DNA of 64,000 nt from Nitrospinaceae bacterium. Lineage in GTDB: Bacteria > Nitrospinota > Nitrospinia > Nitrospinales > Nitrospinaceae. The position numbers and the translations under genes were made by a program. Under the pieces are notes generated by a model. The model made no database searches and had not been told where the DNA came from. It saw nothing but the letters and a program-made list of their open reading frames with translations. The stretch spans positions 124,001 through 188,000 of the forward strand of contig JANQEK010000007.1 in the NCBI GenBank assembly GCA_028278405.1, written 5' to 3'. Shown in pieces: positions 25,986 through 43,500 of this stretch; position 1 is the first letter of the stretch, and each line of letters starts with the position of its first letter.

Positions 25986-26573
25986 TCAGTTGCCAGCATT
26001 ATTCTTGCCGGCGATTTTCTCGCTGATGTTTTTGGCTATCCTCGTATTCATGGCTCCCAGCACTTTTCCCGCCACCCGGCTTTTCATTCGCGAAATGATA
26101 ATGATGGCGGTCCCTTCGTCCATGCGTTCCAGCAAGGCGGCAGCTTGTACCGGTTTCATGTTGGAGTAGGCCTTGACCAGTGCCTTGACGTTTTTCTCGA
26201 TAAGGTCCTTTTTGATACCCACCATCTCTTCGCTGCGCGCGAGGGCCTCTTCAATTTTCTGAAGATCGGAAAGAATTTTTTTCTCAAGCTCCTGAAGATT
26301 TTTTTCTTTGAGAAGCAATTCCTCCTCCCGTTTCTTTAACTCATGGTTTTTGCGCTCGATCATTTCCAAAAGCCGCAAAGTCTCGGCAGAAACGGAAGCG
26401 GGTTGGGTCGGTAGTTGCGGAGGTATGATTTGAACCTTCGACGTTGGCTTTGATTGCTGACTAGTTTGGGAATCCTGGGCATAGGTCCACGATCCTGCCA
26501 GCAGCGCGCCGGTGCAGATGAGACTGGTGATAAGTTTTAAAGAAGCGGATTTCATAAGCTTTTTGTTTGCCAT
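25986..26573 (-). CDS. MotE-like flagellar motor chaperone
   Basis: A 195-residue protein with an N-terminal signal/anchor (about 12-32), a Pro/Gln-rich linker, a long coiled coil (about 65-115, Glu/Lys rich) and a C-terminal MgtE_N-like domain, PVQAAALLERMDEGTAIIII followed by SRMKSRVAGKVL. This matches MotE, which in epsilonproteobacteria and relatives protects the stator protein MotC and is often encoded at the end of fli operons. It overlaps the fliJ end by 22 bp and is the last gene of the flagellar operon. An in-frame ATG at 26555 is an alternative start. Confidence 0.75.
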   Translation of the reverse strand: MANKKLMKSASLKLITSLICTGALLAGSWTYAQDSQTSQQSKPTSKVQIIPPQLPTQPASVSAETLRLLEMIERKNHELKKREEELLLKEKNLQELEKKILSDLQKIEEALARSEEMVGIKKDLIEKNVKALVKAYSNMKPVQAAALLERMDEGTAIIIISRMKSRVAGKVLGAMNTRIAKNISEKIAGKNNAGN

Positions 26574-26989
26574 CGGACGGCGGCCATTTCGTCTATGAAT
26601 GCAATTTCGTCTTTAAAGATTTTATGTTTTTTCCTTAAAAATTCCCGGTCTCTCAAAATTTCGAGAACGCGCCGTTTTTTCATTGCTTCCACAAGCTCTA
26701 ACCGTTTGGCTTCAACCTTTTCATCAGTTTCAAAGATGGCCTGCTCCTGGAGGCTGGATCGAATTCCCAGAGATTGAAAATAGTGATCATACAAACCCAA
26801 TGTGCTGCCAGGAATGGATCGCTGAAGCCGGGTTTGCAATTCATCCCTGGTTTGTACGTCTGATGATTTCAGTTTCTGCAATTCGTTTTGCCGGGAATGG
26901 AGATGATTTTGCATCTCCGCCATTGCCTTTTGTTCCAGGTTCTCGGCGTTTTTACGAAGTTTCAGCAGGGATTCAAAACGAAAGGTCAT
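26552..26989 (-). CDS. fliJ: flagellar export protein FliJ
   Basis: A 145-residue, almost wholly helical coiled-coil protein starting MTFRFESLLKLRKNAENLEQ, the usual FliJ opening. FliJ sits in the centre of the FliI hexamer, like the gamma subunit of F1-ATPase, and escorts export substrates. Sequence is weakly conserved in this family; the position directly after fliI (4-bp overlap) and before the MotE-like gene supports the call. Confidence 0.85.
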   Translation of the reverse strand: MTFRFESLLKLRKNAENLEQKAMAEMQNHLHSRQNELQKLKSSDVQTRDELQTRLQRSIPGSTLGLYDHYFQSLGIRSSLQEQAIFETDEKVEAKRLELVEAMKKRRVLEILRDREFLRKKHKIFKDEIAFIDEMAAVRWQTKSL

Positions 26990-28314
26990 GATTCGCCCTC
27001 CACAACCTGTTTGAGTGCGTTGATGCTATCCTGCAGGGAAGCGGATTCTCCAATTTCCTGTCGTAAAAACCGGTTGAACCCTTCAATTTTTTGAATAGCG
27101 AGGTCGATCCCGGCATTACTGCCCTGTGCATACGCGCCGATGTTGATCAGGTCCTCCGCTTCGCGATAGGTTGCAAGAATGTCTTTGAATTGCACGGCCA
27201 GACCGGTTTGTTCTTTGGAAACCACGTCGATCATCAATCGGCTGATGCTTTCCAGCACGTCGATTGCGGGATAATGGTTGTGCGAAGCCAATCGACGCGA
27301 CAGGACGATATGGCCGTCCAAAATGGCCCGCACCGCGTCCGCAATAGGTTCGGTTAAATCGTCGCCTTCCACCAGAACGGTATAGAGTCCGGTGATGGTC
27401 CCCTTGCCGGAAGAAGTACCTGCGCGCTCCATCAGCTTTGGAAGGAGAGAGAAGACAGACGGGGTGAATCCGCGTGTCGTTGGTGGTTCGCCGACGGACA
27501 ATCCGATTTCTCTCTGCGCCAGAGCAAAGCGGGTAACCGAATCCATCATCAACAGGACGTCCTTGTTCTGGTCCCTGAAATATTCAGCGATTGTGTGGGC
27601 AATGAACGCGCCTCTGAGACGCACCAGTGGAGGTTGATCCGAGGCTGCGACCACCACAACCGATTTTTTTAATCCTTTCTCGCCCAGGTTTTCCTCGATG
27701 AATTCCCGGACCTCGCGTCCCCGTTCACCGATCAATGCGACTACGTTGACGTCGGCTGCGGTGTTGCGGGCCGCCATTCCCAGCAAAATAGATTTCCCAA
27801 TTCCCGTACCGGCCATGATTCCCAAGCGTTGTCCCTTGCCACAGGTCAGCAGGGCATTGATGGAACGAATGCCGACGTCCAACGGTTGCCGGACCCGGTT
27901 TTTGTCGAGTGGGTTGGTGGGTGCGCCGAAAATTGGGTAATCGACTCCCAGAGGAATCGGTCCTTTGCCGTCCAGCGGATTGCCGTTGCCGTCGAGTACT
28001 CGTCCCAGCAGACCGTCGCTAACATTGATGAGCGGCGATTCATCCTTGGATTCGATGATGCTTCCCGGTTCGATACCGGTCATTTCTCCCAGCGACATCA
28101 GCAGTATTTTTTGATCGCGGAAACCCACCACCTCTGCGTCCACTTTCTTGTCCCTTTGATTGGAAACAATAGTGCACAGACTGCCCAGGGATACCGGTGG
28201 ACCATCACCTTCGATGATCAATCCCGTCACACGATCAACGCGTCCCTTCTTTTTGACAAAAGAAACCGTATCAACGAAGGATTGGTATTTTTTCAGATTG
28301 ATGGTTTCGCTCAT
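26986..28314 (-). CDS. fliI: flagellum-specific ATPase FliI
   Basis: A 442-residue ATPase of the flagellar type III export apparatus. The P-loop is AGTGIGKSILLG, followed by ALIGERGREVREFIEENLG, Walker B DVLLMMDSVTRFA and ISLSVGEPPTTRGFTPSVF-like GLSVGEPPTTRGFTPSV. These are clear F1-beta-like export ATPase features. FliI energises substrate loading together with FliH and FliJ, encoded on either side. FliJ overlaps the end by 4 bp. Confidence 0.97.
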   Translation of the reverse strand: MSETINLKKYQSFVDTVSFVKKKGRVDRVTGLIIEGDGPPVSLGSLCTIVSNQRDKKVDAEVVGFRDQKILLMSLGEMTGIEPGSIIESKDESPLINVSDGLLGRVLDGNGNPLDGKGPIPLGVDYPIFGAPTNPLDKNRVRQPLDVGIRSINALLTCGKGQRLGIMAGTGIGKSILLGMAARNTAADVNVVALIGERGREVREFIEENLGEKGLKKSVVVVAASDQPPLVRLRGAFIAHTIAEYFRDQNKDVLLMMDSVTRFALAQREIGLSVGEPPTTRGFTPSVFSLLPKLMERAGTSSGKGTITGLYTVLVEGDDLTEPIADAVRAILDGHIVLSRRLASHNHYPAIDVLESISRLMIDVVSKEQTGLAVQFKDILATYREAEDLINIGAYAQGSNAGIDLAIQKIEGFNRFLRQEIGESASLQDSINALKQVVEGES

Positions 28315-28322
28315 GCTTTTCC

Positions 28323-29129
28323 TCAGGAGGAAGACTCCGGTTGCTCAGGCTCATCCGTTTTATCCGGCTGAGATAGATCTGTCGGGGGAGGGGGCGCCAG
28401 GTGCAGGACTTTCTCGATGTGCTCGTCAAGGTGGTCCAACCCCGCCTCCACCGTTCCGAAATTCGATTCCACGACACAATTCCCGCGCGGGACGGAAGCA
28501 TGGGATTCAAACGTCACGTTTTTTATGTCATGGAATAACTGTATGAGTTCCTTTCCGTATTCTTCCAGTTCTTTGTGATCCTCGGGATGGATTTTGATGA
28601 CCAGCGATTCCCGGTCGAGTACCGACTCGATGGCCATGCGAACAATTTCACGTATCCCGTCTTCTTTGCCTTTCAGCTCGCTTCGAATCACTTTCCGGGC
28701 GAGGGTTGCAACCATTTCCACCATTTCGCGCTCCAGCAGGGGATAGGTTTTTTCTCTCGCTTGGGATAATTCGTCGGCAAGAGACTGTAAGGCGTTCATG
28801 GAGGAGGTAAACTGTTCCCGTACAGCCTCTGTGCCGGCGTGATATCCTTCTTTGTGGCCTTCCTGATATCCCTGTTCCCGGGCTTCCTCCTGGATTTTTG
28901 CCGCCTGCTCTTTCATTTCCTGCAGGGCATCGGAGGATTCATCTTCACCTTCCTGGGTCGGCAGGGATTTGGATTCCACCACGATTCTTTGTTGCTCCAG
29001 ATCATGGACGAACTCCGGTTCCAGGGCCTTGGCTTCGCGAATATACTCATCCAAATTGAATTTCCGTGATGTGCCGGTCTGGCCTTCGGAATGTTGATCA
29101 GGAACAAAATTGCTGAAATCTTTAGACAA
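28323..29129 (-). CDS. fliH: flagellar assembly protein FliH
   Basis: A 268-residue protein between fliG and fliI. A Glu-rich N-terminal half contains EEAREQGYQEGHKEGYHAGT, the GxxxG-type repeat typical of FliH. The C-terminal half has REMVEMVATLARKVIRSELK and IKIHPEDHKELEEYG, as in FliH/YscL ATPase regulators. FliH restrains FliI and docks it at the base of the export gate. The start overlaps the fliG end by 8 bp. The Pro-rich tail is likely disordered. Confidence 0.92.
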   Translation of the reverse strand: MSKDFSNFVPDQHSEGQTGTSRKFNLDEYIREAKALEPEFVHDLEQQRIVVESKSLPTQEGEDESSDALQEMKEQAAKIQEEAREQGYQEGHKEGYHAGTEAVREQFTSSMNALQSLADELSQAREKTYPLLEREMVEMVATLARKVIRSELKGKEDGIREIVRMAIESVLDRESLVIKIHPEDHKELEEYGKELIQLFHDIKNVTFESHASVPRGNCVVESNFGTVEAGLDHLDEHIEKVLHLAPPPPTDLSQPDKTDEPEQPESSS

Positions 29130-30135
29130 GCTCTTCTCCTCCTCCGCCTACAATGATGCGGCCTTCTTCTTCCAATCGTTTAACGACGTTGACGATTTTC
29201 TGCTGGGCCCGCTCCACTTCTGAAATCTTGGTGAGTCCCATCGCTTCCAAATCTTCCTTCAGCATGGTGGAGGCCCGCTCAGACATATTGGAGAATATTT
29301 TACTGATCAATTCTTCGCTGGCGGTTTTGAGGGAAACCAGGAGATCTTCCTGACTGATTTCCTTGAGCATCATTTGAACTCCGTGATCGTCGATTTTCAG
29401 GATATCTTCGAAAGTGAAGCGGAGGTTGCGGATTTCATTAGCGAGATCGGGATCCACCTCATCCATGGCGGTGAGGATGGACGACTCGGTGGCCCGGTCG
29501 ATGGTGCCCATGATCTGGGAGGCAACTTCCACACCCCCCATTTTGCTGCCGGAGACTGCTCCAGAGGAACGGAATTCGGATTGCAGGGCCTGGTCCAGTT
29601 CGCGCAGGACCTGCGGCGATACGCGTTCGAGAGTAGCAAGCCGGTACACAACCTCCATCCGTGCTTCTTCAGGCATTTCCCGCAGTGTCGCTCCGGCCAT
29701 CGCAGTTTCCAGATGCGCCAGAACGATGGCAGCGGTTTGCGGATGTTCGTTGGCCAGGAAGAGGGCGACTACTTTCGGTTCGAGCATGCGGACCGTATCC
29801 AGACCGCCGCCCAAATCTTCGCCGGGAGCGGTGATGTTGTTCAGAATTTCAGTGGCCTTGGCAGGATCGAGCGCCCGCATCAGTGTGGTCTTCAAAAAGT
29901 CCAAGCCGGAAATTCCCAAACCTCCTCCACCGACTGCCATGCCCTTATAAAATTCGCGGGAAACTTCGTCGACTGTGGTGATATCCACTTCGCCAATGGC
30001 GGACATGTAATTGCCGATGCTCTGGATTTCGCGCTCTTCCATTTCAGCCAGAATTTTGGCCGCGCCTTCTTCACCCAGGGACATCAAAAAAATGGCCGCC
30101 TTTTCGGGACCGGTGTATGTTCGCTCTTCTGCCAT
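29122..30135 (-). CDS. fliG: flagellar motor switch protein FliG
   Basis: A 337-residue C-ring protein of normal length. Visible hallmarks are TGPEKAAIFLMSLGEEGAAK at the N-terminus (FliF-binding), EHPQTAAIVLAHL in the middle domain (EHPQ motif), and a charged C-terminal domain with FTFEDILKIDDHGVQMMLKE for torque generation with stator MotA. It lies between fliF and fliH in the usual order. FliM and FliN are not in the window. Confidence 0.97.
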   Translation of the reverse strand: MAEERTYTGPEKAAIFLMSLGEEGAAKILAEMEEREIQSIGNYMSAIGEVDITTVDEVSREFYKGMAVGGGGLGISGLDFLKTTLMRALDPAKATEILNNITAPGEDLGGGLDTVRMLEPKVVALFLANEHPQTAAIVLAHLETAMAGATLREMPEEARMEVVYRLATLERVSPQVLRELDQALQSEFRSSGAVSGSKMGGVEVASQIMGTIDRATESSILTAMDEVDPDLANEIRNLRFTFEDILKIDDHGVQMMLKEISQEDLLVSLKTASEELISKIFSNMSERASTMLKEDLEAMGLTKISEVERAQQKIVNVVKRLEEEGRIIVGGGGEELV

Positions 30136-30151: not shown

Positions 30152-31738
30152 TCAGGTGCGCTCTCTCATCCATTTCCTGAGGATGGCTGCAGCGTATTTG
30201 GGATCGGTGTCCACAAAGTCGCCGACGGATTTACGAATTTCAACGTTTTCCTGAGCCTGCCGCGCCAACCGCATTTCCTCTTCCATCGCTTCCAATTGCT
30301 CCGGGGTAGGCGCCTCTCCCAGTTGACCGGGACCCGGCTCGACACTGGTGGTGACCCATCGGACCAATGGCAGGATCACCCTGAAGAGAAACCACAGTAC
30401 CAATATAGTACCTATGGACCATATTACAATATTGACACCCAGATCCCATTGCCATTGCTTCTCAGCTTCCTTTAAATTTTGCAATTCCAACGATTTGTCG
30501 AACTGAATATTTTCCAGTTGCACCTGGTCGCCGCGTTTGTCGTCGAAGCCGACCGCATTTTTCACCAGCTCGAGATATTTGGCCATCTCTTCCGGAGTGC
30601 GCGCCTGATATTGCGGCGGGTTCCCGGCCATACTGCCGTCCACCAGCACGCTTACCGACAATCGTTTGATTTTGCCCGTGGTCTGCGAGGTCTGCTTGAC
30701 TACCTTATTGATTTCAAAGTTCAGCGTTTGCTTTTCGTTGCTGCGGGTGGGGGCCGTGCCTTTACTGGGTTCAGGCGTGCCTTCTTCTCCCGGTACCAGT
30801 GATTCCACACCGGGGACACCGCTTGGGGCTGCCGTGCCGACCATCGATTCGGTCGTGGTTTGTTCACTGCGCACGACCTGCGAATCGGGATCATACAGCT
30901 CTTCGGTTTGTACCACCTTGTCGAAATCCATGTCCGCGTTCACCCGGGCGATCACTTTACCGGCTCCCAACGCTTCTTCCAGCATCATCGCGATACGTTG
31001 TTCCATTTCGCTCTCGACTTTGCGCTTATGCTGATAGTTGGTGGCGGTGAGCATGACGTCATCCGAAACCGCCTTGCTGCCCGAAAGCAGGTTGCCTTTG
31101 GGGTCGACGAGCACCACGTTGCCGGGCGGAATGTTCGCCACACTGCTCGATACCAAGTGCACGATGCCCTGTATCTGGCCCTGCGACAGCGTGCGGCCGG
31201 GGTGCAGTTTGACCATGACCGAAGCCTTGCCGACCTGCTTCTCCTTGAGGAACAACTCTTCCTTGGGAATCGCCAGATGGACCCGTGCCTGATCCACCGA
31301 TTCCAGTGATTTGATGGTGCGGGCCAGCTCCCCCTGAAGCGCGCGCTGGAAGTTGAGCTTCTGCGTGAACTCCGTCATGCCCATCGGCGTGTCTTCAAAC
31401 AATTCGAGTCCGACCTCGGTTCCCGCAGGCAAACCCTGGCTGGCGAGGCTGAGTCGGATTTCATGCACCCGGTCAGACGGAACCGACACATTGCGCCCCT
31501 GGTTGGTCAACTTGTGTGGAATGTTCTGCGTGTCCAACTGATCGACCACCGCCGCCGCGTCCTGGTCGGACAGGTTGGTGTACAGCAGTTGGTAATCCGG
31601 CGCCTGCACCCACAAGGCAATGGACACCAGCGCGCCGATAACCAGAGCCACTCCTCCCATAGCCACCGCCATGTTGACAGGGGAGAGGGAGAGAAATTTC
31701 TTCCAGAGGTTTTGAATGAATTGAATGAGTTTTTCCAT
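30152..31738 (-). CDS. fliF: flagellar MS-ring protein FliF
   Basis: A 528-residue protein with TM1 (about 23-45), ring-building motifs of the YscJ/FliF domain (YTNLSDQDAAAVVDQLD, LFEDTPMGMTEFTQKLNFQ, LARTIKSLESVDQARVHLA), a variable periplasmic part, TM2 (about 430-452) and a cytoplasmic tail that binds FliG. All are standard. It begins 43 bases after flgC; the fliE gene that commonly lies between the two is absent here. Confidence 0.97.
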   Translation of the reverse strand: MEKLIQFIQNLWKKFLSLSPVNMAVAMGGVALVIGALVSIALWVQAPDYQLLYTNLSDQDAAAVVDQLDTQNIPHKLTNQGRNVSVPSDRVHEIRLSLASQGLPAGTEVGLELFEDTPMGMTEFTQKLNFQRALQGELARTIKSLESVDQARVHLAIPKEELFLKEKQVGKASVMVKLHPGRTLSQGQIQGIVHLVSSSVANIPPGNVVLVDPKGNLLSGSKAVSDDVMLTATNYQHKRKVESEMEQRIAMMLEEALGAGKVIARVNADMDFDKVVQTEELYDPDSQVVRSEQTTTESMVGTAAPSGVPGVESLVPGEEGTPEPSKGTAPTRSNEKQTLNFEINKVVKQTSQTTGKIKRLSVSVLVDGSMAGNPPQYQARTPEEMAKYLELVKNAVGFDDKRGDQVQLENIQFDKSLELQNLKEAEKQWQWDLGVNIVIWSIGTILVLWFLFRVILPLVRWVTTSVEPGPGQLGEAPTPEQLEAMEEEMRLARQAQENVEIRKSVGDFVDTDPKYAAAILRKWMRERT

Positions 31739-31781
31739 AAGCGGGCCGGTTTCCGTTTAAATGTGTATCATGAAAAGTTCA

Positions 31782-32216
31782 TCACCTTCCGAGATCGATC
31801 GCCCTCAGCGCCATCGACTTGGCGGCGTTGACGGACTGGATGTTCGCCTCAAACGAGCGGGTGGCATTGATCAGATTCACCATCTCCTCCATGAGGTTGA
31901 TGTTGGGCATGGCGACGTAGCCTTCCTCATTGGCGTCCGGGTGATTCGGATTGAAAACCATCGTGGGTGGCGATTGGTCCTCCACCACATCCGAGACCTT
32001 GACCTGGCGCACGTGTTCGGCCAGGGCGTTTTCCAGCGTCGTCGCAAATTCGTTCAGCGGCAGGGCGGTGAATAACACGTCCTTGCGCTTGTACGGTCCG
32101 CCTTCCGGCGTGCGCGTGGTTTCGATATTGGCCAGATTACTGGCAATGGTGTCCATGCGCTTGCGCTGGGCGGTCAGACCGGACGCGCCGATTTGCATCG
32201 CAGATAAGAAATCCAT
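31782..32216 (-). CDS. flgC: flagellar proximal rod protein FlgC
   Basis: A 144-residue rod protein. It begins MDFLSAMQIGASGLTAQRKR with the ASNLANIETTRTPEG motif of axial proteins, and ends with a helix carrying MVNLINATRSFEANIQ. The ATG at 32216 is set by GGAGGGGGGAAC four bases upstream; the longer frame to 32276 is not FlgC-like. It is the first gene of the operon, preceded by a sigma-54 promoter. FlgB, which normally precedes FlgC, is absent from this locus. Confidence 0.95.
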   Translation of the reverse strand: MDFLSAMQIGASGLTAQRKRMDTIASNLANIETTRTPEGGPYKRKDVLFTALPLNEFATTLENALAEHVRQVKVSDVVEDQSPPTMVFNPNHPDANEEGYVAMPNINLMEEMVNLINATRSFEANIQSVNAAKSMALRAIDLGR

Positions 32217-32300
32217 ATAGAAGTTCCCCCCTCCAAAGGTTCGATTTTGGGTCAAAAAAGCGTTGAGATTCCCCACATCTCAGGGATTTTCAATAAGTTA

Positions 32301-32318
32301 GAGCAAGTTCTGTACCAA
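32301..32318 (-). promoter_or_regulatory. sigma-54 promoter of the flgC-fliFGHIJ-motE operon
   Basis: On the minus strand TTGGTACAGAACTTGCTC has the -24 GG (32316-32315) and the -12 GC (32304-32303) with the exact 12-base register and the TTGCT core of sigma-54 promoters. Transcription would start near 32291, about 75 bases before flgC. The FlrC-like activator encoded at 33856-35235 is the obvious candidate to drive it. Confidence 0.85.
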
Positions 32319-32978: not shown

Positions 32979-33052
32979 CCTTTTCAAATTGTCCTTGACA
33001 AACACGCGTTAAATTTTACTCTTAAAGGATATATTAAATTCGGAAATCTGAT

Positions 33053-33523: not shown

Positions 33524-33855
33524 AAGCTTTTTGGTTGTTTATTCACTTCAAACCTTTTGAGGGAAGGTTTAAATAAAATTGACCTGTCCCTGTAAGTTGC
33601 GCAACAAGTTAAGTTAGAGTTTCTCTTTTGGGTGTGACGACCCTTAGGGTTTCTTTCCTTTTGACCAGCACAGTCAAATCATACTCCTGCTCCTCCATTC
33701 AGATTAGATCCCCGGTTATTCAGTGAGTGAAGAGAGTTTTGAATTTACGATTAAGGCATCGGATGGCCCAAAATCATAGCGTGTTATGAGTGTCCGCTAT
33801 TGGCCGTTTGCAGACATTCAATTTTAAGTGGACAGATGTCGGTATTTTAGAAGTT
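33524..33855. other. gene-free stretch downstream of the FlrC-like gene
   Basis: About 330 bases with no supported gene, repeat or RNA. It would contain the 3' end of the FlrC-like transcript, but no clear hairpin plus T-run is visible. Composition is intermediate between the AT-rich islet and the host. Confidence 0.4.
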
Positions 33856-35235
33856 CTACTCGCTTTTTTCTTTATATTCGTTGAGTTTGTTGCGGAGTGT
33901 GCGGATGCTGATGCCGAGGATGTCGGCGGCTTTGGTTTTGTTGTTGCCGGTTTCTTCGAGGGTTTTGAAGATGAGCTCGCGCTCCATTTCGTAGATCGTG
34001 CCTCTGAAACCTCCCAGGTTGTTATTGTTGTTCGCTGCCTCGGCGGCTACTCCGTCTTCCATGAACAGGTGTGCGGGTTGGATGGCATCTTCCTGACAGA
34101 TCAGCACGGCGCGTTCGATGATGTTCTCCAGTTCGCGAACGTTGCCGCGCCATTGGTATTTGTTGAGAAGGGCTAATGTCTCCGGCGCTATCGAGGAAAG
34201 CTTTTTGCCGTTTTCCCGGCCGTGTTTATTCATGAAATGTTCGGCCAGTACCGGCAGGTCTTCCATGCGTTCACGGAGAGGCGGCAGTTTGATCGGGATG
34301 ACGTTCAATCGGTAATACAAATCCTCCCGAAATTTCCCTTCCTCGATGAGGGCTTTGGGGTCGCGGTTGGTGGTGGCGATGACGCGCACGTCGATGGGGA
34401 TCGGTTCGCGTCCGCCAACTTTGTCGATTTCATGTTCCTGAAGGACGCGCAGGAGTTTGGCCTGCAGGGGCGGCGTCATTTCAGTGACTTCGTCCAGGAG
34501 TAGCGTACCCTTGTGCGCCAATTCAAACTTACCGTCCTTTTTGGCGATCGCGCCGGTAAACGCGCCTTTCTCGTGTCCGAACAATTCCGATTCCAGCAAA
34601 CCTTCCGGCAGGGCAGCGCAGTTCACGGCGAGGAACGGTTTGTCGGCGCGCGGACTACATTGGTGAATGTAACGCGCCACCATTTCCTTACCTGTTCCCG
34701 TTTCACCGGAAATCAGCACGGTGGATTTGCTGTAGGCGATGTTTTTCGCAAACTGCACCATTTCCAGCATGGATTTGTTTTGCGTGACGATCTCACGGGC
34801 CTCCACGACTTTTTGCTTCGATGCGGAATCTTTGGTTGCCGGTGCGGAAGAGGGCGCGGTGTCGCTCAGGAAAGCGCGGTTGACGGTGCCCGCCAGGATT
34901 TCAATCGAAAACGGTTTGAGCAGATAGTCGAAAGCACCCTGTTTCATGGACTCCACCGCGTTGTCGATGGTGCCGTAGGCGGTCATCATGATGACCAGAG
35001 TGTTGGGCGACTGTTCCTTGATTTCGCGCAGCAGTTCCTGTCCGCTCATCTTCGGCATTTTCACGTCGGAGATGACCAGATCGAATTCCTCTCCTTCGAG
35101 TTTGTGCAGAGCATCCGTTGCGTTCTCCGCCGAATCGGTCTGGTACCCTTCGCGTTTCAGCGCTTCGGTGAGGGCGATGCGCATTTCCGGTTCGTCGTCG
35201 ACGATCAGAATTTTTTTGGAAGCGTGATCGGTCAT
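33856..35235 (-). CDS. NtrC-family sigma-54 activator (FlrC/FleR/FlgR-like)
   Basis: A 460-residue enhancer-binding protein. The receiver (about 8-120) has VDDEPEM, DLVISDVKMPKMSG and LLKPFS. The AAA+ domain (about 155-390) has Walker A GETGTGKEMV, the sigma-54 contact loop GAFTGA, and LLLDEVTEM. The Fis-type helix-turn-helix at the C-terminus reads NKTKAADILGISIRTLRNKL. The ATG at 35235 (TDHASKK) is preferred over 35304, which lies inside the kinase gene. With the adjacent kinase and two sigma-54 promoters nearby (one on flgC), it fits the flagellar regulators FlrC, FleR and FlgR. Confidence 0.9.
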   Translation of the reverse strand: MTDHASKKILIVDDEPEMRIALTEALKREGYQTDSAENATDALHKLEGEEFDLVISDVKMPKMSGQELLREIKEQSPNTLVIMMTAYGTIDNAVESMKQGAFDYLLKPFSIEILAGTVNRAFLSDTAPSSAPATKDSASKQKVVEAREIVTQNKSMLEMVQFAKNIAYSKSTVLISGETGTGKEMVARYIHQCSPRADKPFLAVNCAALPEGLLESELFGHEKGAFTGAIAKKDGKFELAHKGTLLLDEVTEMTPPLQAKLLRVLQEHEIDKVGGREPIPIDVRVIATTNRDPKALIEEGKFREDLYYRLNVIPIKLPPLRERMEDLPVLAEHFMNKHGRENGKKLSSIAPETLALLNKYQWRGNVRELENIIERAVLICQEDAIQPAHLFMEDGVAAEAANNNNNLGGFRGTIYEMERELIFKTLEETGNNKTKAADILGISIRTLRNKLNEYKEKSE

Positions 35236-35242
35236 GGTCCAC

Positions 35243-36499
35243 TCACTCCCATCCCGGAAGGTTGACGGTAAACGTGGTGCCTTTACCTTTTTGGCTTTCG
35301 ACATCGATGGTGCCCTGATGCGCTTTCACGATGTTGTGCGCAATGGCCAGTCCCAGTCCGGTGCCTTTGTCTTTCGTGCTGAAGAACGGATTGAAGATGC
35401 TTTCGCGGTCTTCGGACGAAATGCCGACCCCGGTATCGGAAATGGTGGTGGTGATGAAGTGCCGGTGATAGGTATTATTATCCGGCGATTTGTTTTTTTC
35501 GATGCGCAGTTTCAGGTTGCCGCCTTTCGGCATGGCTTGCACGGCGTTACGGATAAAATTGAGGAACACCTGTTGCAAAAGTTCCTTGTCACCTTGTGCC
35601 AACGGTTCGTCTTTGCAGTAATCGCATTGGACGTTGATCGTGTCCGGTGATTGCAGGTCGGCGCTGGATTCGAGTATGCCGCGTAACAGATCGTTGATAT
35701 TGCATTGCTGGCGCGACGGTTCAGGAGATTTGGCGAACAGCAGAAGGCTGGAGATGATGCGGTCCATGTTTTTGACGCCGGAGACAATGTGGTCGGCCAG
35801 TTTCATTGTTTCCGTATCTCCCTGGGAATCTTTTTTCAGTACCGATGCGAACAGTTCGATGCTGCCCAAGGGATTGCGGATTTCGTGGGCGATACCGGCG
35901 GCCATTTCCCCCATGGCGCGCAGACGGTCGTTGCGTTCGGCTTCTTCTTCGAGTTGTTTGAGTTCTGTGATGTCCTGCACGATGAGCACGGTACCCAGTT
36001 GCGTGCCGGATGGATCGTGTACCGGCGAGGCAGACACGCGGACCTGGATTCGACGGCCCTCGACATTCTTTAACTCCTCATCCTGAATCAGGTTACCTTT
36101 TTTCGATTCTTTGAGGCGGTCTACCAGAGTCGAAAAGACCGGATGCGGCACCGCTTGTGCGAGCGGTTGGTTAAGGCATTGCTCCGGAGACAGATTCAAG
36201 ATGGCTCCTGCGGTTTGACTGAGGGTGGTGATCATTTGGTTTTCATCGACCACGATCACGCCGCTGGTCAGACTCTCGAGTATGTTGTGGAGGTAGTTTT
36301 TGACTTTTTCCTTTTCCTGAAGGTTATTTTCCAGCTCCAGATTTTTTTTCTCCAGCTCCAGGTTGAGATCCTTGATCCGTTCCTGCAGAGTTTCGTAGGA
36401 TTTTTGCAGGTGTTCGGTGGTTTCGTTGAACGATTGGAAAGCGGCCCTCAACACCTCCAACTCTTTTTGTTTTTTGGTCTCTTGGGCTGGATCTTCCAT
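35243..36499 (-). CDS. cytoplasmic histidine kinase (FlrB/FleS/FlgS-like)
   Basis: About 418 residues with no TM segment. A coiled coil (about 10-70, LEKKNLELENNLQEKEK) leads to a PAS domain (about 70-185), HisKA with AAGIAHEIRNPLGSIELFAS, and a HATPase domain with NFIRNAVQAMPKGG, DTGVGIS and KGTGLGLAIAHN. The NPLGSIELFAS form is characteristic of flagellar kinases FlrB/FleS. The ATG at 36499 follows GAAGG; a longer start at 36547 lacks a site. It phosphorylates, by inference, the NtrC-family regulator encoded 7 bases downstream. Confidence 0.88.
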   Translation of the reverse strand: MEDPAQETKKQKELEVLRAAFQSFNETTEHLQKSYETLQERIKDLNLELEKKNLELENNLQEKEKVKNYLHNILESLTSGVIVVDENQMITTLSQTAGAILNLSPEQCLNQPLAQAVPHPVFSTLVDRLKESKKGNLIQDEELKNVEGRRIQVRVSASPVHDPSGTQLGTVLIVQDITELKQLEEEAERNDRLRAMGEMAAGIAHEIRNPLGSIELFASVLKKDSQGDTETMKLADHIVSGVKNMDRIISSLLLFAKSPEPSRQQCNINDLLRGILESSADLQSPDTINVQCDYCKDEPLAQGDKELLQQVFLNFIRNAVQAMPKGGNLKLRIEKNKSPDNNTYHRHFITTTISDTGVGISSEDRESIFNPFFSTKDKGTGLGLAIAHNIVKAHQGTIDVESQKGKGTTFTVNLPGWE

Positions 36500-36556
36500 A
36501 ATACCTTCACGTGCGCGGGTTTGCGGGTTTTTGAACTCTGTTTTCATTATAGAAGA

Positions 36557-39049
36557 TTATAGAAGGTCTTTTAACCGTTTTTCCCAGTCGATCACTTTCA
36601 GGTGAGATTCAGCGGCCTTTTGCAGGAGATCGTTCCGGTTTTCTGCAACCAGGGTTTTTAACTCAGTTTCAGCCTGCTCCTTTTTCTTGAGACGATCCAG
36701 GTTGGTGATGATCAGGTAATCCCCCCAGCTTCTGAGACGATGCTCGGGAAACAGCTTCCTTCCCGCCATGAGGGCATCGAGGGATTTCCGAGTCTTCCCC
36801 TGCATGGAAAGTACCATGCCCAGTTTGTAGTAAGCCGTTTGCACGTAGTCCGGAGGATTGCGAATAGTGCGGTCGTAACCGTCGATGGCCTTGCGGTAGG
36901 CGCGGGCGGCGTTGCGCAGGTCTTCCCGGGCAAACCACGTTTCCGCCATCAGGTAGTGAATGTTTGCAGCCTCCACGTTTTCGGAATTCAGCAACTGATT
37001 GAAAATTTCAATTGAACGATCGTATTGTTTTTGGCCGAGGTAAGCGCGGGCCAGAATGATTTTGGCTTCCGGCAGGCGCGCACTGTCTTTATACGTATTA
37101 ATAAATGTTTGTGAGACACGCTCGGCTTCCTTGAACCGGTTTTCGTTGAGGTGAATTTCTCCCAGATCCAGAAACAAGCGGTCGGTGTAGGCACCGTTGA
37201 CATCGGCGAATTTAACCTTTTCAAGAAACTTGAGCGCTTCCGAGTTCAGACCAATGGCCTTGTAACTTTCTCCGATCTGCAATTGCGTTTGAACGCGGTT
37301 CAGTTCACCAATCCCCAAATTCAGATAATCGGCGTAGGCATAGAGAACCGGCAAGTGTCCATTTTGGCTGGCGTATTGATCGATCAGCTGCACCATGGAC
37401 AACTGCAAATATTTTTTTGCCCACCGGTGGAATTTCGAGTCGTGCTCAAACGGGAGCAGGCGTTTGAATTCCTCGATGGCTTCCAGATAGCGTTGCTCCC
37501 GGTAATAGGCCGACCCCCGGCTGAAGGTGGCTTCCGCCAGGATGTCCTGCGACTGCGGATTATTGGAGACCTCGTCGTAGGCGCGGTACGGGTGATAGTA
37601 AGGGGATACTTCGAACACCAGATCCTTGACCGGCAGGGCCGGGAACCGGAGACCGACATCGGCCAAACGGATTTGCGCGTATTGGGATTCGGCGCTACCG
37701 GTATTGAGGCCGTAGGATTTGTTGAATACCGTTAGAGCGGACATGCCGTTGTTTTCCAGAAGATACGTGTCGCCAATGCGGTTCAATCCCCGATGCGCGT
37801 TGGGAGATTCCGGCGCCAGGTTGACCAGATTGAAATAGTATTTACGAGCCTGAGCATATTGTTTACGGTTGAAATGAATTTCGCCGATGGTGAAGTTCAC
37901 CTCCGGTTGCTCGTTCAGTTCATCAGGCCAGCGCTTGACGACGTCCTCGTAAATTTTCATCGCTTTCGAAAAATCCCGGGCTTCGTAGTAGCGTTGTGCA
38001 ATTTGGAAAAGTCCCTTTTTGGCGTCCGCATTTTGCGGAGCTTTACGCAGCAGAACTTGAAAAGTTTTATAGGCTTCGTCCAGTTTGTCTTCCTTGACAA
38101 GCATCAGTCCGAGGCCGGTTTCCCGCGCGATGTTGTAGCGGCTGGATTTATCCTGCTGCGTTCCTTTTTCGTAGATGGTTCGGGCTTCCAGGGTGTAATC
38201 CATTGCTTCATAGATGGACGCGGTTTTGAACAGCGCATGATCATAAAATTGCGAATCTGGGTAAGTTCGCATGGCGTATTGGTAGGAAGCCAGCGCTTCC
38301 TCGTAATTGGGGTAATCCTCCTGTTTCGCCAGATTATGCTGTGTTTCAGCGAGCAGGTATGCGGCATTCGAAAGAAAGGGGCTTTCCCGATATTTCTTCT
38401 GGAACTGTTGAAACGCAATCAGCGCCTCCCTGTAGTTTTTATTCTGAAACAGTTTGAGCGCCTTTTCGTAATCTTTGCGTCCGCTCTTAAGATTCTGCTC
38501 CGAGTCGGCTTGAAAAAGTTTCGTTGTTTTCTTTTGATTTGAGCGGGAAGCCAAAGCCGGTGATTTCGATGATTTTCTTTTCGCTTCGGCAATTTGTCGT
38601 TTTGTTTTACGGGCGACCTGTTTTGTGACGCCACCCTTCGTTTTCAAGTCGATCACAATCTGCTCAGGTTGATGTTTCACAAAATGGACCAGGCGGGTAT
38701 CTTTGCTTTTCAACCGCAGGGTGAATTTGACATTTTGTTTGATCTCCTGAACCTGGATCTGACCGAGATGCTTGTCTTTAAAAGAAATGGATTGAACTTT
38801 AGGGTTCAACGTGGCGTTACGAATCCATATCACCACCTTTTGATTGGGATAATTGGTGAGAACCCGGTAAGGGCTGTCCTGATTCAGTTGGATGATGATC
38901 CGGGTGGACTGTGGATGACTGCCCAGACGATAGTCCTCCACCTGTGTGAGGGATTCCCGGCTTTCCACCATGGACTGTGGAATAAGCAGAACCGTCAGGC
39001 TGAGTCCGGCCAACCCAATCAAATTGCGGAAACTTTGTCGAAGTGCCAT
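36557..39049 (-). CDS. secreted AMIN-domain TPR protein
   Basis: An 830-residue protein with a signal peptide (about 1-30), an AMIN-like domain (about 35-135: HPQSTRIIIQLNQDSPYRVL, then VVIWIRNATLN, then VKFTLRLKSKDTRLV) and many tetratricopeptide-type helical repeats from about residue 185 to the end, such as FQNKNYREALIAFQQFQKKY. AMIN domains bind peptidoglycan or secretin-type complexes; TPRs bind partner proteins. It leads an operon with the flagellar kinase and activator and has its own sigma-54 promoter, so it may be a scaffold for flagellar assembly. No exact family name can be given. Confidence 0.82.
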   Translation of the reverse strand: MALRQSFRNLIGLAGLSLTVLLIPQSMVESRESLTQVEDYRLGSHPQSTRIIIQLNQDSPYRVLTNYPNQKVVIWIRNATLNPKVQSISFKDKHLGQIQVQEIKQNVKFTLRLKSKDTRLVHFVKHQPEQIVIDLKTKGGVTKQVARKTKRQIAEAKRKSSKSPALASRSNQKKTTKLFQADSEQNLKSGRKDYEKALKLFQNKNYREALIAFQQFQKKYRESPFLSNAAYLLAETQHNLAKQEDYPNYEEALASYQYAMRTYPDSQFYDHALFKTASIYEAMDYTLEARTIYEKGTQQDKSSRYNIARETGLGLMLVKEDKLDEAYKTFQVLLRKAPQNADAKKGLFQIAQRYYEARDFSKAMKIYEDVVKRWPDELNEQPEVNFTIGEIHFNRKQYAQARKYYFNLVNLAPESPNAHRGLNRIGDTYLLENNGMSALTVFNKSYGLNTGSAESQYAQIRLADVGLRFPALPVKDLVFEVSPYYHPYRAYDEVSNNPQSQDILAEATFSRGSAYYREQRYLEAIEEFKRLLPFEHDSKFHRWAKKYLQLSMVQLIDQYASQNGHLPVLYAYADYLNLGIGELNRVQTQLQIGESYKAIGLNSEALKFLEKVKFADVNGAYTDRLFLDLGEIHLNENRFKEAERVSQTFINTYKDSARLPEAKIILARAYLGQKQYDRSIEIFNQLLNSENVEAANIHYLMAETWFAREDLRNAARAYRKAIDGYDRTIRNPPDYVQTAYYKLGMVLSMQGKTRKSLDALMAGRKLFPEHRLRSWGDYLIITNLDRLKKKEQAETELKTLVAENRNDLLQKAAESHLKVIDWEKRLKDLL

Positions 39050-39086: not shown

Positions 39087-39106
39087 AATAGCAAATTTGA
39101 TACCAA
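39087..39106 (-). promoter_or_regulatory. sigma-54 promoter of the AMIN-TPR/flrBC-like operon
   Basis: On the minus strand TTGGTATCAAATTTGCTATT carries the -24 GG (39104-39103) and the -12 GC (39092-39091) 12 bases apart, with TTGCT as in the flgC promoter. The start of transcription would be near 39079, 30 bases before the ATG at 39049. Confidence 0.8.
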
Positions 39107-39345: not shown

Positions 39346-40098
39346 TTACTTTCCTACAGATTTATCAAAGTCTTCACCTTCTTTTCCCTCTACAATCTCC
39401 GGGATTAAGGGTAGGTGGCGAATTTTGCCTTGTTTAATTTTTAAGTCAATTCCACTCAATAACGTAATTTTTTTTGCAACATAGCTTTGAATTTTTTGGT
39501 TCGTAGACTGAGCTTCAAGTGAAAACTCAATTGGACCCAAATTCTCAAAATTTGCAATTGCGTTTCGGGAGAAATTATCATGGATGTTCTGCTTTTGAAC
39601 AAAACACATTGCCACAACTGCCCAAATTTGTCTAAGTTGCTCAAAGTACCTTTTTTCGTATAAAGTTAGATTATTATCTTCCACCAAATTAATTAATACT
39701 GCCTTATTAATTAATAACTCTAATTCGCTATATATCTCCCATAGTTTAGACGACAATTCCCCAATTTCATTAGCTAGGGATTCGCCATACTTAATATTAT
39801 GACGTAATAAATCCTCATCAGTGATAACGGTACCTTTAATTTTGTTAAAAGTTATCTCTCCTTCCATATTTAGTCTAATTTTTACTATTTCGGGTGAAAA
39901 TTTAGAAAGCAAAAGACTGAGCTTTCTGCTTTTAAGAGAAATTCCTTCCAGGATTTTTATTTTTTCATTATATGTGGTTTGAATCTTCCAAGTTTCAAGT
40001 CCTTGATATGCAAAAATTGTAATGATGACGGTAAGGATCACCGTTGATATATTGCAAACTGCTGAAATCCATTTGAATTTTGAGTCTTGATTCTCCAT
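39346..40098 (-). CDS. hypothetical single-pass membrane protein (islet)
   Basis: A 250-residue protein with one TM segment (about 12-32, SAVCNISTVILTVIITIFAY) and a mostly helical, Lys/Glu/Leu-rich remainder. I recognise no family. A GGGGG run lies 6 bases ahead of the ATG. Coding is AT-rich with many AAA, ATT and AAT codons, unlike the GC-richer neighbours, which points to acquisition by transfer. It is divergent from the next islet gene with about 200 bases between starts. Confidence 0.65.
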   Translation of the reverse strand: MENQDSKFKWISAVCNISTVILTVIITIFAYQGLETWKIQTTYNEKIKILEGISLKSRKLSLLLSKFSPEIVKIRLNMEGEITFNKIKGTVITDEDLLRHNIKYGESLANEIGELSSKLWEIYSELELLINKAVLINLVEDNNLTLYEKRYFEQLRQIWAVVAMCFVQKQNIHDNFSRNAIANFENLGPIEFSLEAQSTNQKIQSYVAKKITLLSGIDLKIKQGKIRHLPLIPEIVEGKEGEDFDKSVGK

Positions 40099-40304
40099 TT
40101 AATCCCCCTATTCGGTCAGAAGCTGAAATCCCTCGCTTCCAGGATTCTCATGAGTTCAGAAGCCTCTTCCTCACACAAGACTTGATTATCATAGCTATTG
40201 GATAATCGTACATTATTTCAGCTTGCCGATAATGTCAATATTTTGGTATGGTTTGGGCAATTAAAATTGGATTGATTTATCTATCGAAATTGATGGAGTG
40301 GGCA

Positions 40305-41543
40305 ATGATATTGAAAACCTTATCAAATTTATCGAATTCTTCTTTTTCTAAAAGGTTCCCAAAGTTTAAGGAGAAAATTGAGGACTGGGAAGACCGTTAT
40401 TGTCAGTGGCGGGAATATGCTGGCCCACATGGTTTTGAGGATAGGTTTCAGTTTATAACACGTAGTCCCAGCACAACTCTATCAACACAAAAATTTCGCA
40501 ATGATTTTACGGAGGAAAATGGCCGTCAAGCAAACGAGCTCGAAATTATCGACTTTATTATGGATGAAGCCCGGAACGGAGCACCCACAAGATTAATAAT
40601 TAATGACTCGATAAAACATGGTTTTGATATGGATTTATTAGATGAGCAGAAGGACCCAAGAGGGCCTCAGGATATATATTTAAACCCTCCTCATTTTAAC
40701 TACTTATCATTAAGATCTAACATAAATCGGCTAAGTATAAGGTGGGCAGTTATTGAAGAACTACATGTATCACACAGCATAAAGGAACTTATCCTCGAAA
40801 ACTGTTGTATTGGTAAAATTTTATTTGAAGAAAGAACACTGTCGGTAGATATTTATAATTCTTGGTTCGGTTATTTTAATTTGGGGCCCACTTCAATTAT
40901 CAATCTTTGGATAGGTGGTGGATGGTTATGTGCAATTAACTGTCCTCCTGCTTACGTCCATGAAGAAAATCCTTTTCTCGGTTCAGTTGATTTTGTAGAT
41001 GTTAATTTACCTACCTCCCCAAAACAATCCCTTATATACAAGGGGACACAACAATATAGAACCCTTCGGGCCCATTTTGAAAGACTACAGAACGGACCAA
41101 TGGCTGGGTTAATGAGGGCTAAAGAATTAGCATCGGAAAGGGAATCTGATTCTGGAGTATCGTGGCTTTTTAATTGGGTATATTGTGTTGCGTCCGGCTA
41201 TGGACGGAAACCAGGCTGGGCCTTTATCTGGTCCATGGTTTTTCTGGCACTTAATATTATGGTTCTGACAGGGTTTGATGGAGTGAGAGTAGATTCTCAA
41301 AACCTAACCCAAGGAGCATGGCAATTGGAATGGCAAGGAGATGATTTTCTTTCACAGTTTGTCAGGGCATCTATTTTAACCTTACAAACAGTAATAAATC
41401 CGTTCACCATTTTTTTAGCCAAATCCGCCTTTAAATTTAAATCCTTGTATGGTTTGATTCACACGTTTCTCTTTGTGATCCTTGCCGATGCCGCTTTCGT
41501 TTTTGGTAGTTTAGCTATTCGTAAGCGATTGAAATTTTCTTAG
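40305..41543 (+). CDS. hypothetical protein with C-terminal membrane region (pentapeptide-channel-like)
   Basis: About 412 residues. The N-terminal 240 are soluble with beta-rich stretches (for example VIEELHVSHSIKELILENCC). Then come a helical segment, RTLRAHFERLQNGPMAGLMR, and two to three TM segments starting SGYGRKPGWAFIWSMVFLAL. The last form (linker, then GYGR-P and TM pair) is seen in pentapeptide-repeat membrane proteins with ion-channel-like ends, but clear pentapeptides are not visible. The ATG at 40305 follows GGAG at 6 bases and is preferred over 40248. The gene is AT-rich and lies in the islet; it could be a defence or toxin protein, without proof. Confidence 0.6.
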   Translation: MILKTLSNLSNSSFSKRFPKFKEKIEDWEDRYCQWREYAGPHGFEDRFQFITRSPSTTLSTQKFRNDFTEENGRQANELEIIDFIMDEARNGAPTRLIINDSIKHGFDMDLLDEQKDPRGPQDIYLNPPHFNYLSLRSNINRLSIRWAVIEELHVSHSIKELILENCCIGKILFEERTLSVDIYNSWFGYFNLGPTSIINLWIGGGWLCAINCPPAYVHEENPFLGSVDFVDVNLPTSPKQSLIYKGTQQYRTLRAHFERLQNGPMAGLMRAKELASERESDSGVSWLFNWVYCVASGYGRKPGWAFIWSMVFLALNIMVLTGFDGVRVDSQNLTQGAWQLEWQGDDFLSQFVRASILTLQTVINPFTIFLAKSAFKFKSLYGLIHTFLFVILADAAFVFGSLAIRKRLKFS

Positions 41544-41550
41544 CAAAATT

Positions 41551-41578
41551 TTCTATTAGTTCTCACCATTTTTAACTC
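41551..41578 (+). repeat. right direct repeat (putative attR) of the AT-rich islet
   Basis: TTCTATT-AGTTCTC-ACCATTTTTAACTC, the partner of the repeat at 39308-39334. It overlaps the stop codon of the following minus-strand gene (41572-41574). This is what would be expected if a tRNA-Pro gene once abutted that gene and the islet inserted at the tRNA 3' end. Confidence 0.6.
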
Positions 41579-43500
41579 TTGTCCAGATGATCAGCCAGTT
41601 CGCGGATTTTTTGAGAGATGTGAACGGGGTAGGCGGGTGCCGGTTTCAGGGAACTCAGTGATTTCGGGAGTTGGTCCAGTTGACGAGCGGCGTGTTTGTG
41701 CAATTGCTCCAGAGGCACGGGCGGGTTCAATCGCTTTCCCTGGCACATATAGGGTTTCATCAGGGGTTCACCGGAGAGCGGCTCGTCTTCTATTGCCAAA
41801 TGGTCCTCCTGCATTTTTCCCTTTGCGTCTAAAGTTCTGAAAACCTGCTTTTTTCCGGGCCAGGTGGATTTGCCTTCCGAACGTTTACGTTGAGGGCGCC
41901 CGTCGTATTCCTGCATTTTGTACACACATTCCAGAGTGGGTGCATCTTCCGAAACCGCCAGGCGGGTTCCGATACCGAAGCCGTCGATCGGTGCCTGCTG
42001 GGCGATCAATTGTTCGAGAGCGTATTCATCGAGATTACCGCTGGCAAAGATCCGGGTATTTTTCAGCCCGCCTTTGTCCAGGATGGATCTCACCTCTTTT
42101 GCCAGTTGAGCCAAATCACCGCTGTCCAGCCGCACTCCATGAATGGAGATGCCTTCCTTTTTGAGGTCGCGGGCCAAGGCAACCACTTTATGAGCCGCTT
42201 GCAGCGTGTCATAAGTGTCGAGAAGAAAAATTGTATTGTCAGGCCAGGAGTGAGCAAAATTTTTAAAGGCGTCGGATTCCTCGGAGTGTGCCTGTATGTA
42301 AGAGTGCGCCATCGTACCGAACACCGGAACCCCGTAAAGGGGTTTAGCGGAAACGGTGGCCGAACCGTTGAAGCCCGCAAGGTAACTGGCACGTGCAACG
42401 AACAACCCCGCTTCCGAACCGTGCGCCCGGCGCAGCCCGAAATCCAACAACGTTTTGCCGGGGGCGGTCAACACCATACGTGCCGCCTTCGAAGCCGTTA
42501 ATATCTGCATCTGCAGAATATTGATGATGCGCGATTCAGCCAGTTGCGCCTGCGGTAAGGGGGCGGTGATTCTCACGACGGGTTCATTGGAAAAAAAGAT
42601 CGTGCCCTCCGGCAGGGCATCGACATCTCCGGTGAATCGAAAATCCTTGAGAGAATCTACGAAGTCTGCTGGAAATATTCCCGAATGTTTCATCCAATCC
42701 CTTTCCTGTTGGGTGAACTGGAGACTCTCCAGGTATTCCAGAACCTGCTCCAGTCCGGCAGCCATTAAGAAATTGCGTTGATCGGGAAGGTTGCGGATAT
42801 AAAACTCAAAAACTGCGGTTTGGTTCATGCCTTGATCATGATAGGACTTGAGCATCGCCAATTGATACAGATCGGTCAGGGTGGCAGGAGTTGGAGATGA
42901 AGAAAGTCCTACGGACTCAACATTGGCGGGTTGGCAACCCAGATTCAGCATTTCCTCGATAGCTCTGGGACCGTCTTCGGGTTGTACGCTAACTGCGCGG
43001 ATGGCGTCTTCCAGCAAAACCACGGAATAGTTAAGGCGCACCGCGTCGCGCACGGAATTGAGTACGCAGTAATCCGTAGCGAGTCCTCCGACGAACAGAC
43101 GTTTGACCTTGGCTTGTTTCAGGCGTTGATCGAGGTCGGTATTTTCAAAAGCGGAGTAAGCATCGCTTTCCGGTTCGGTGGCTTTACTGATAACCGTGGC
43201 ATCCGTCAGGTTTAATCCTGAAGCGAATCGAGCTCCATGGGTTTCCGCGACACAATGTGGAGGCCATGGACCATTTTGTTCCGTGAACGAGCAATGGTTG
43301 GATGGATGCCAGTCCCGGCTCGCGAAAATGGGCAGGTGGCGTGTGCGGAAGGTGGAAGAATAGCGGTTTAGTATCGGGACAACATCGTCTCCCTGGGGAA
43401 CTGCCAGACTGCCACCGGGAAGAAAATCGTTTTGCACATCGACGATCAACAAGGCATCACCTTGCCCGGGAATGCAATCATGTGCTCCTGCGGTGGTCAT
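41572..43500 (-). CDS. nicotinamidase-nicotinate phosphoribosyltransferase fusion
   Basis: A 642-residue two-domain protein. Residues 1-200 are a PncA-type nicotinamidase with catalytic Asp in LLIVDVQNDFLPGG, metal ligands in SRDWHPSNHCSF, Lys in VISKATEPE and Cys in GGLATDYCVL. Residues 205-640 are a PncB-type nicotinate phosphoribosyltransferase with LTDLYQLAMLKSY, FGLRRAHGSEAG and GVRLDSGDLAQL. The single chain would turn nicotinamide into nicotinate and then nicotinate mononucleotide, the first two steps of NAD salvage. No stop or frameshift separates the parts. Its 3' end touches the right repeat of the AT-rich islet. Confidence 0.92.
   Translation of the reverse strand: MTTAGAHDCIPGQGDALLIVDVQNDFLPGGSLAVPQGDDVVPILNRYSSTFRTRHLPIFASRDWHPSNHCSFTEQNGPWPPHCVAETHGARFASGLNLTDATVISKATEPESDAYSAFENTDLDQRLKQAKVKRLFVGGLATDYCVLNSVRDAVRLNYSVVLLEDAIRAVSVQPEDGPRAIEEMLNLGCQPANVESVGLSSSPTPATLTDLYQLAMLKSYHDQGMNQTAVFEFYIRNLPDQRNFLMAAGLEQVLEYLESLQFTQQERDWMKHSGIFPADFVDSLKDFRFTGDVDALPEGTIFFSNEPVVRITAPLPQAQLAESRIINILQMQILTASKAARMVLTAPGKTLLDFGLRRAHGSEAGLFVARASYLAGFNGSATVSAKPLYGVPVFGTMAHSYIQAHSEESDAFKNFAHSWPDNTIFLLDTYDTLQAAHKVVALARDLKKEGISIHGVRLDSGDLAQLAKEVRSILDKGGLKNTRIFASGNLDEYALEQLIAQQAPIDGFGIGTRLAVSEDAPTLECVYKMQEYDGRPQRKRSEGKSTWPGKKQVFRTLDAKGKMQEDHLAIEDEPLSGEPLMKPYMCQGKRLNPPVPLEQLHKHAARQLDQLPKSLSSLKPAPAYPVHISQKIRELADHLDKS

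Follow-up and report, generated by a model that had tools for sequence, protein, structure and literature searches.

A probable flagellar motor spoke gene at the head of a kinase and activator operon in Nitrospinota

The DNA analysed here (the window) is a 64,000-nucleotide stretch of a Nitrospinaceae genome (contig JANQEK010000007.1, positions 124,001 to 188,000), and its minus strand carries, at 36557..39049, a gene for an 830-residue protein with an AMIN domain and a long array of tetratricopeptide repeats (TPRs), referred to below as the AMIN-TPR gene. Our data suggest, with a probability that we put at roughly 0.8, that the product of this gene is a radial spoke in a complex flagellar motor, as PflA is in Campylobacter and MotK in Cereibacter; the proposal is based on its architecture, its partner gene and its co-occurrence with flagella. 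The domain anatomy, the conserved gene order, the flagellar co-occurrence, the conservation of a promoter-like box and the presence of a FlgY-like gene were computed directly, and we infer the location of the protein, its binding partners, its effect on the stators, and the transcription and limits of the operon.

A protein with the anatomy of PflA and MotK

The AMIN-TPR open reading frame (ORF) begins with ATG and is open up to its stop codon. An N-terminal AMIN domain (PF11741, residues 45-133) scores 23.4 bits in Pfam, over the curated cut-off of 20.5, and is followed by a linker and a long TPR superhelix, with TPR families spanning residues ~190 to 800 and several of them well above their cut-offs. 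A single hydrophobic stretch at residues 10-28 is, by hydropathy only, compatible with a signal peptide. A preliminary description of this DNA had reported an 830-residue secreted protein, encoded ahead of a kinase and an activator, in which a long series of TPRs accompanies an AMIN-like domain, and the ORF, the Pfam domains, the hydrophobic N-terminus and the 9-nt gap to the kinase gene all uphold it. When the rows of alignment A1 were trimmed to the AMIN region, the family was matched by 14 of 14 (14 of the 17 sequences, three close ones being left out), and a profile of that region matched two solved chains weakly, AmiC (E-value 0.0055) and PilQ (E-value 0.13), the two classical AMIN proteins. 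Because 35 of the 40 relatives searched hold a long open-frame match (at least 843 residues, 38-83% identity), the ORF is no chance reading; in one relative, G038, the match is divided between two contigs. A scan of named genomes returned five loci, four of which match approximately the whole protein at 75-82% identity (one is titled Nitrospirota, the others Nitrospinota, Nitrospina and Nitrospinaceae), the fifth being a weak TPR match.

In passages of PMC11870540 and PMC12222027, PflA is described as a beta-sandwich of AMIN type joined by a loop to 16-17 TPRs; its spokes connect the E-ring, made of FlgY, with the rim that surrounds the stators. According to passages of PMC10954123, MotK of Cereibacter is a periplasmic protein with AMIN and TPR-like parts; MotE and MotB2 are its interaction partners, and the Fla2 flagella require it in order to rotate. 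The protein encoded in the window resembles PflA, as portrayed in those passages, in its N-terminal AMIN-type beta-sandwich, its loop, its ~16-17 TPRs, its similar length and its FlgY partner, and it resembles MotK and CC_2058 of the alphaproteobacteria, which passages of PMC10954123 and PMC13023049 present as AMIN and TPR-like periplasmic proteins working with MotE, a FlgY homologue. It differs from PflA in that no sequence match to solved PflA was seen among the chains listed; PflA-like proteins, in the relevant passages of PMC11870540, are not conserved in sequence and are recognised through TPRs near flagellar genes. It differs from both in its genetic setting: the gene here heads a kinase and activator operon behind a sigma-54-type box, whereas Campylobacter jejuni pflA is reported to be independent of RpoN and motK belongs to a putative CtrA-controlled fliL-motE-motA operon (passages of PMC10954123). 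The preliminary description held that AMIN-TPR proteins are not standard flagellar regulators; this stands insofar as the protein is no recognised regulator, but the view of it as an unusual flagellar actor is not supported, given the architecture published for PflA and MotK in the passages cited.

A FlgY/MotE/FlbB-like partner gene

The proposed E-ring partner is encoded in the window at 25986..26573 (minus strand) as a 195-aa protein with a coiled-coil-like middle and an MgtE_N-like end. Passages of PMC11870540 and PMC13023049 give as FlgY/MotE features a coiled coil, an MgtE_N-like end and a gene placed after fliJ, all of which are seen here. In each of 10 sampled genomes, which represent seven families, a homologue comes after fliJ, and all 10 of these relatives match MgtE_N at an E-value of 0.0025 or better, two of them over the cut-off. 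A FlgY/MotE-like partner is encoded in the window and in all 10 genomes, mostly under the curated cut-offs. The window copy differs from the recognised families in falling below both the Pfam and the NCBIfam cut-off (MgtE_N 18.8 versus 25.9 bits; collar_FlbB E-value 2.1e-10), a shortfall that weighs with the other contrary points gathered below.

Co-occurrence with flagella across Nitrospinota

The survey comprised 77 genomes, all from Nitrospinota, with presence thresholds of E 1e-15 for AMIN-TPR and E 1e-55 for the kinase. AMIN-TPR matches were found in 63 genomes, of which four (G012, G019, G029 and G053) are remnants, so that the gene was counted as present in 59. FliF_C, found in 53 genomes, accompanied AMIN-TPR in 52; seven genomes had AMIN-TPR only, one (G072) had FliF_C only, and 17 had neither. 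All seven AMIN-TPR-only genomes (G002, G020, G022, G039, G057, G063 and G071) are less than 90% complete, and among the four of these that were searched further, G002, G022 and G039 held a FliF fragment and G020 a trace only (E-value 5.5e-4). The kinase was found in 55 genomes, every one of which has AMIN-TPR.

The association is strict in the 31 genomes with a completeness of 90% or more and a contamination of no more than 5%. One set of 25 genomes has all three of AMIN-TPR (unbroken), FliF_C and the kinase, and in the remaining six (G001, G012, G015, G019, G029 and G041, from five genera) each of the three is missing or broken. The chance of such agreement would be 1.4e-6 if the genomes were independent, a figure that ignores relatedness and must be read knowing that they are not. 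The preliminary description would have been refuted by homologues occurring regularly without flagella or the kinase; the three genes instead proved inseparable in the near-complete genomes, and none of the 77 has the kinase without AMIN-TPR, which favours it. Its suggestion of a scaffold role likewise fits the AMIN-TPR anatomy and the flagellar co-occurrence.

Two of the six joint absences have features of their own. G001, which is 97% complete and belongs to the window's genus, gave no AMIN-TPR, kinase, FliF or FliG match and has FlhA, FliM/FliN, a MotB-type protein and flagellin; its absences may reflect an assembly gap or a very recent loss. Single absences can be gaps, as judged from G038 (94% complete), which has FliF and no FliM/FliN match, and from G058, G061 and G068, which have FlhA and no MotB match. 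In G041 a frame of 80 residues contains part of a flagellin-like protein, and this genome gave no match for FliF, FlhA, FliG, FliM/FliN or MotB.

The kinase and activator operon and its promoter-like box

The kinase gene (35243..36547, minus strand) starts 9 nt downstream of the AMIN-TPR gene and encodes a PAS-HisKA-HATPase sensor histidine kinase with no membrane span by hydropathy. It is followed by a sigma-54-dependent response regulator (33856..35304, minus strand) with receiver, AAA+ and Fis-type helix-turn-helix domains. By position rather than by tree, the pair is of the FlgSR/FlrBC/FleSR type, in which, according to passages of PMC7064773, a cytoplasmic-type kinase and a sigma-54 activator adjoin early flagellar genes; none of those passages describes a periplasmic scaffold gene heading the operon. 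Among the titles and abstracts listed (12 of 32 papers), none concerned an operon of a tetratricopeptide gene with FlrC and sigma-54.

Downstream on the same strand lie flgC (31782..32276, from a Pfam scan; its true start is probably an internal ATG, MDFLSAMQIG...), fliF for the MS ring (30152..31738), the rotor gene fliG (29122..30135), fliH (28323..29129), fliI (26986..28314), fliJ (26552..26989) and the FlgY-like gene. The ~1.5 kb stretch between the activator gene and flgC includes a plus-strand ORF of 156 aa (33053-33523) that is weakly DUF4118-like (E-value 0.05, under the cut-off). A search confined to the window recognised no flgB-like ORF before flgC (31738-33856), and there is no space in the window for fliE between flgC and fliF, its location elsewhere not having been searched. 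A second flagellar locus in the same genome has the order fliL-fliM-fliN-fliO-P-Q-R-flhB-flhA-flhF-flhG-fliA, some of these names being given from reading the sequences.

The order of AMIN-TPR followed by the kinase is conserved: the two genes are adjacent on one strand in 50 of the 55 genomes having both, their matched stretches being -10 to 613 nt apart. Three of the five exceptions (G024, G027 and G048) have a partial kinase match that fits a contig break. The other two, G042 and G043 of family f6 (loci L062 and L063), have the genes on different contigs, and the AMIN-TPR contig of G042 holds only a distant kinase-type stretch at 26% identity on the other strand. Four AMIN-TPR genomes lack a kinase match (G031, G037, G044 and G063); in G037 a fragment of the kinase lies where a contig ends, and in G031 the start of the kinase is joined to the end of the activator. 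FliF may lie elsewhere, being ~1.8 Mb from the adjacent AMIN-TPR and kinase genes on the single contig of G008 and on another contig in G010 and G011.

A sigma-54-type box, TGGTATCAAATTTGCT (39090..39105, minus strand), lies ~41 nt before the AMIN-TPR ATG and agrees with the generally known sigma-54 consensus at 9 of 12 positions. The window holds 25 such sites on both strands, so a single box is unremarkable, and the evidence is its conservation and position. Just ahead of the AMIN-TPR gene, a box that is mostly TGGYAY-N5-TTGCT was found in 28 of 30 genes scanned (the window and L006-L034, with duplicate loci L035-L038 left out), against a background of 0.11 matches per 880 nt in gene bodies. 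Of the remaining two, L015 had no box in a scan of only 238 nt of upstream sequence, and the sole match at L018, 522 nt away, was not counted. The stand-alone AMIN-TPR genes of f6 keep the box (10 and 11 of 12 positions), and one f7 and two f9 genes have a distant box or none. A second box, TGGTACAGAACTTGCT (32302..32317, minus strand; 10 of 12 positions), precedes flgC, and of 12 further genomes scanned, 10 have a similar box before this gene.

This arrangement bears on whether the protein acts as a periplasmic checkpoint, reporting the state of cell-wall or periplasmic assembly to the kinase either directly or via a membrane partner. The gene comes first before the kinase in 50 of 55 genomes, the gap in the window being 9 nt, and it is present wherever the kinase is; its position in the operon is the positive support for a checkpoint role, which is possible on that account. 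The kinase, however, is without a membrane span by hydropathy, the counterparts that have been studied require the MS ring, FliG and the export gate (PMC7064773, whose relevant passages include no spoke among the components tested), and f6 retains both genes apart from each other, the AMIN-TPR gene still having its own sigma-54-type box. A transducer was neither identified nor searched for. The proposal of the preliminary description that the kinase follows the state of the protein does not fare well against these observations, and we regard a reporting function as improbable. Since the counterparts depend on MS ring, FliG and export gate and the kinase here is likewise span-less, co-expression rather than sensing of the spoke is the simplest account.

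Contrary evidence and other placements

Several results weigh against a spoke or support it weakly. The structural evidence begins with a predicted model in which helices cover residues 183-829, some stretches having a pLDDT below 50, and in which the AMIN part is poor (pLDDT about 25-32). Foldseek, listing 1760 matches with E-values up to 10, ranked 9hmf_K, a Campylobacter motor scaffold chain of 773 residues that we take, from its length only, to be PflA, first at an E-value of 4.1e-12, which speaks for the spoke; the next, an unrelated TPR chain, followed at 9.2e-12, and TM-scores were about 0.2. A second structural aligner returned generic TPR proteins and no motor entry among the 50 listed. 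With so narrow a lead, and with no motor entry from the other aligner, the Foldseek result is only suggestive. Searches of PDB chains with profile A1 (best 60 of 180), with AMIN profile A3 and with the single protein yielded TPR-type and AMIN proteins, and no motor scaffold was seen. Beyond structure, G072 (82% complete) has FliF_C without an AMIN-TPR match at E 1e-15, and G031 keeps a full AMIN-TPR despite damage to the kinase, the activator and FliF. Finally, C. jejuni pflA and flgY are reported to be independent of RpoN (sigma-54), in contrast with the promoter proposed here, so the wiring would differ in Nitrospinota. The main texts of the motor papers searched for the name Nitrospinota do not contain it; the supplementary tables of PMC11870540 may include members of the phylum.

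The anatomy and the flagellar co-occurrence do not by themselves fix a location, and no direct sequence match to PflA was seen; both points would fit a related kind of flagellar scaffold at another site, for example an accessory of the P-ring or the basal disk. The presence of a FlgY-like partner gene and the AMIN-then-TPR order shared with PflA and MotK point to the spoke instead and leave another site with little probability. Equally hard to sustain is the idea that a TPR protein of the general envelope, or one like Tol-Pal/CpoB, merely neighbours flagellar genes: NCBIfam tol_pal_ybgF does match in four stretches (148.8 versus a cut-off of 90.1) and CpoB is among the solved TPR matches, but the AMIN domain, the sigma-54-type box and the joint presence and absence with FliF and the kinase in the 31 near-complete genomes speak against it, as does the lack of any match to a Tol-Pal family among the 18 other nearby window ORFs scanned with Pfam, with no Tol-Pal search made elsewhere.

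A model for the spoke operon

If the protein is a spoke, it would be secreted, with its AMIN domain facing the peptidoglycan or the rim. Its gene would lead an operon that also contains the checkpoint kinase and the sigma-54 activator behind a sigma-54-type promoter, and with one such promoter, the spoke and the switch licensing later flagellar genes would be made together. FlgY would come from the neighbouring operon flgC-fliFGHIJ-flgY under the same promoter type, together with the MS ring, and the kinase would sense assembly of the MS ring, FliG and the export gate, not the spoke.

Decayed loci and AMIN-FliF fusions

Where flagellar genes decay, the AMIN-TPR gene mostly breaks or joins them. 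In G012 its pieces lie in different frames and run into fliI, and the FlhA gene is broken as well; a FlgY-like frame is full-length. Three of the remnants are fusions. Those of G019 (L040:1334-2347, plus strand, 337-codon open frame) and G053 (L043:151-1140, plus strand, 329 codons), from one genus, consist of the AMIN domain, a linker and the end of FliF (its last membrane span and its tail), with a fliG frame next, which in G019 retains all its Pfam domains. That of G029 (L041:892-2412, plus strand), from another genus, joins AMIN, a FliF span (matched by the FliF of G026, E-value 8e-12), the FliG middle (residues 99-297, the FliG N-domain missing) and a FlgY-like part in a single 506-codon frame. 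Hydropathy places a membrane span behind the linker in all three; N-terminal hydrophobicity is just above the threshold of 1.6 in G019 and G053 and below it, at 1.35, in G029. A sigma-54-type box is kept ahead of each fusion, and each lies next to a DUF502-type gene that also neighbours the cluster in the window (46-48% identity).

The second flagellar locus of G019 and G029 is cut to open fliM, fliN, flhG and fliA, the export genes between being gone (L064:7236-10933 and L065:4733-8136, both minus strand), with an FlhF fragment in G019. Genome searches gave no FlhA, MotB-type or flagellin match in G019, G029 or G053, and no FliM/FliN in G053; the G053 absences mean little because that genome is 65% complete. 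FliG keeps EHPQ in all three, and FliM of G019 and G029 keeps GGxG and the CheY-type LSQxEVDALL, motifs whose roles are general knowledge; FliM of the flagellate G055 is without GGxG.

The fusion looks selected, judging from its sequence. A simple Nei-Gojobori count between G019 and G053 gives a non-synonymous divergence (dN) of 0.09 and a synonymous divergence (dS) of 0.36 over 318 codons for the fusion, and dN 0.04 and dS 0.73 for FliG. Under neutral drift ~11 stops would be expected in the fusion, and none of 2000 simulations had zero stops, assuming that the fusion is older than the G019/G053 split. The AMIN break falls at almost the same residue in the two genomes, and the junctions differ. 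In a FliM-FliN-FlhG-FliA tree G019 and G029 group together (support 75), G019 without a long branch and G029 with a longer one; an AMIN tree, in which the G037 row was disregarded, has low support and disagrees with it. Against selection, the fusions come from three genomes only, and slow decay is possible, especially in G029.

We tentatively suggest, at somewhat less than even odds, that in some flagella-less Nitrospinota the ruined operon has become a new device, in which the AMIN-FliF fusion would anchor FliG, and through FliG also FliM and FliN, to the envelope. Such a device would be a static, wall-anchored platform of the rotor ring, perhaps a polar landmark or, because FliM keeps its LSQxEVDALL motif, perhaps a docking site for CheY. 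In the papers listed on a C-ring without flagella, and in passages of PMC9927559 and PMC12199754, no AMIN-FliF anchor was found.

Genes upstream of the AMIN-TPR gene

The region immediately upstream of the AMIN-TPR gene (39346-41543) contains ORFs of 250 aa (minus strand) and 431 aa (plus strand) with no Pfam family over the cut-off. Beyond it, a 642-aa protein (41572-43500, minus strand) combines an isochorismatase-type (nicotinamidase-like) domain with a nicotinate phosphoribosyltransferase, two successive steps of NAD salvage.

Implications

Our data propose, by architecture and gene association, a spoke-type protein for the phylum Nitrospinota, with its gene probably positioned at the head of the checkpoint operon. 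On our reading, a few flagella-less relatives may have repurposed the rotor ring and anchored it to the envelope, with leftover motor parts fused to a piece of the spoke. In flagellate members, the gene for a motor scaffold would be tied to the switch that times flagellar assembly, making the co-ordination of spoke and checkpoint a question that can be asked directly.

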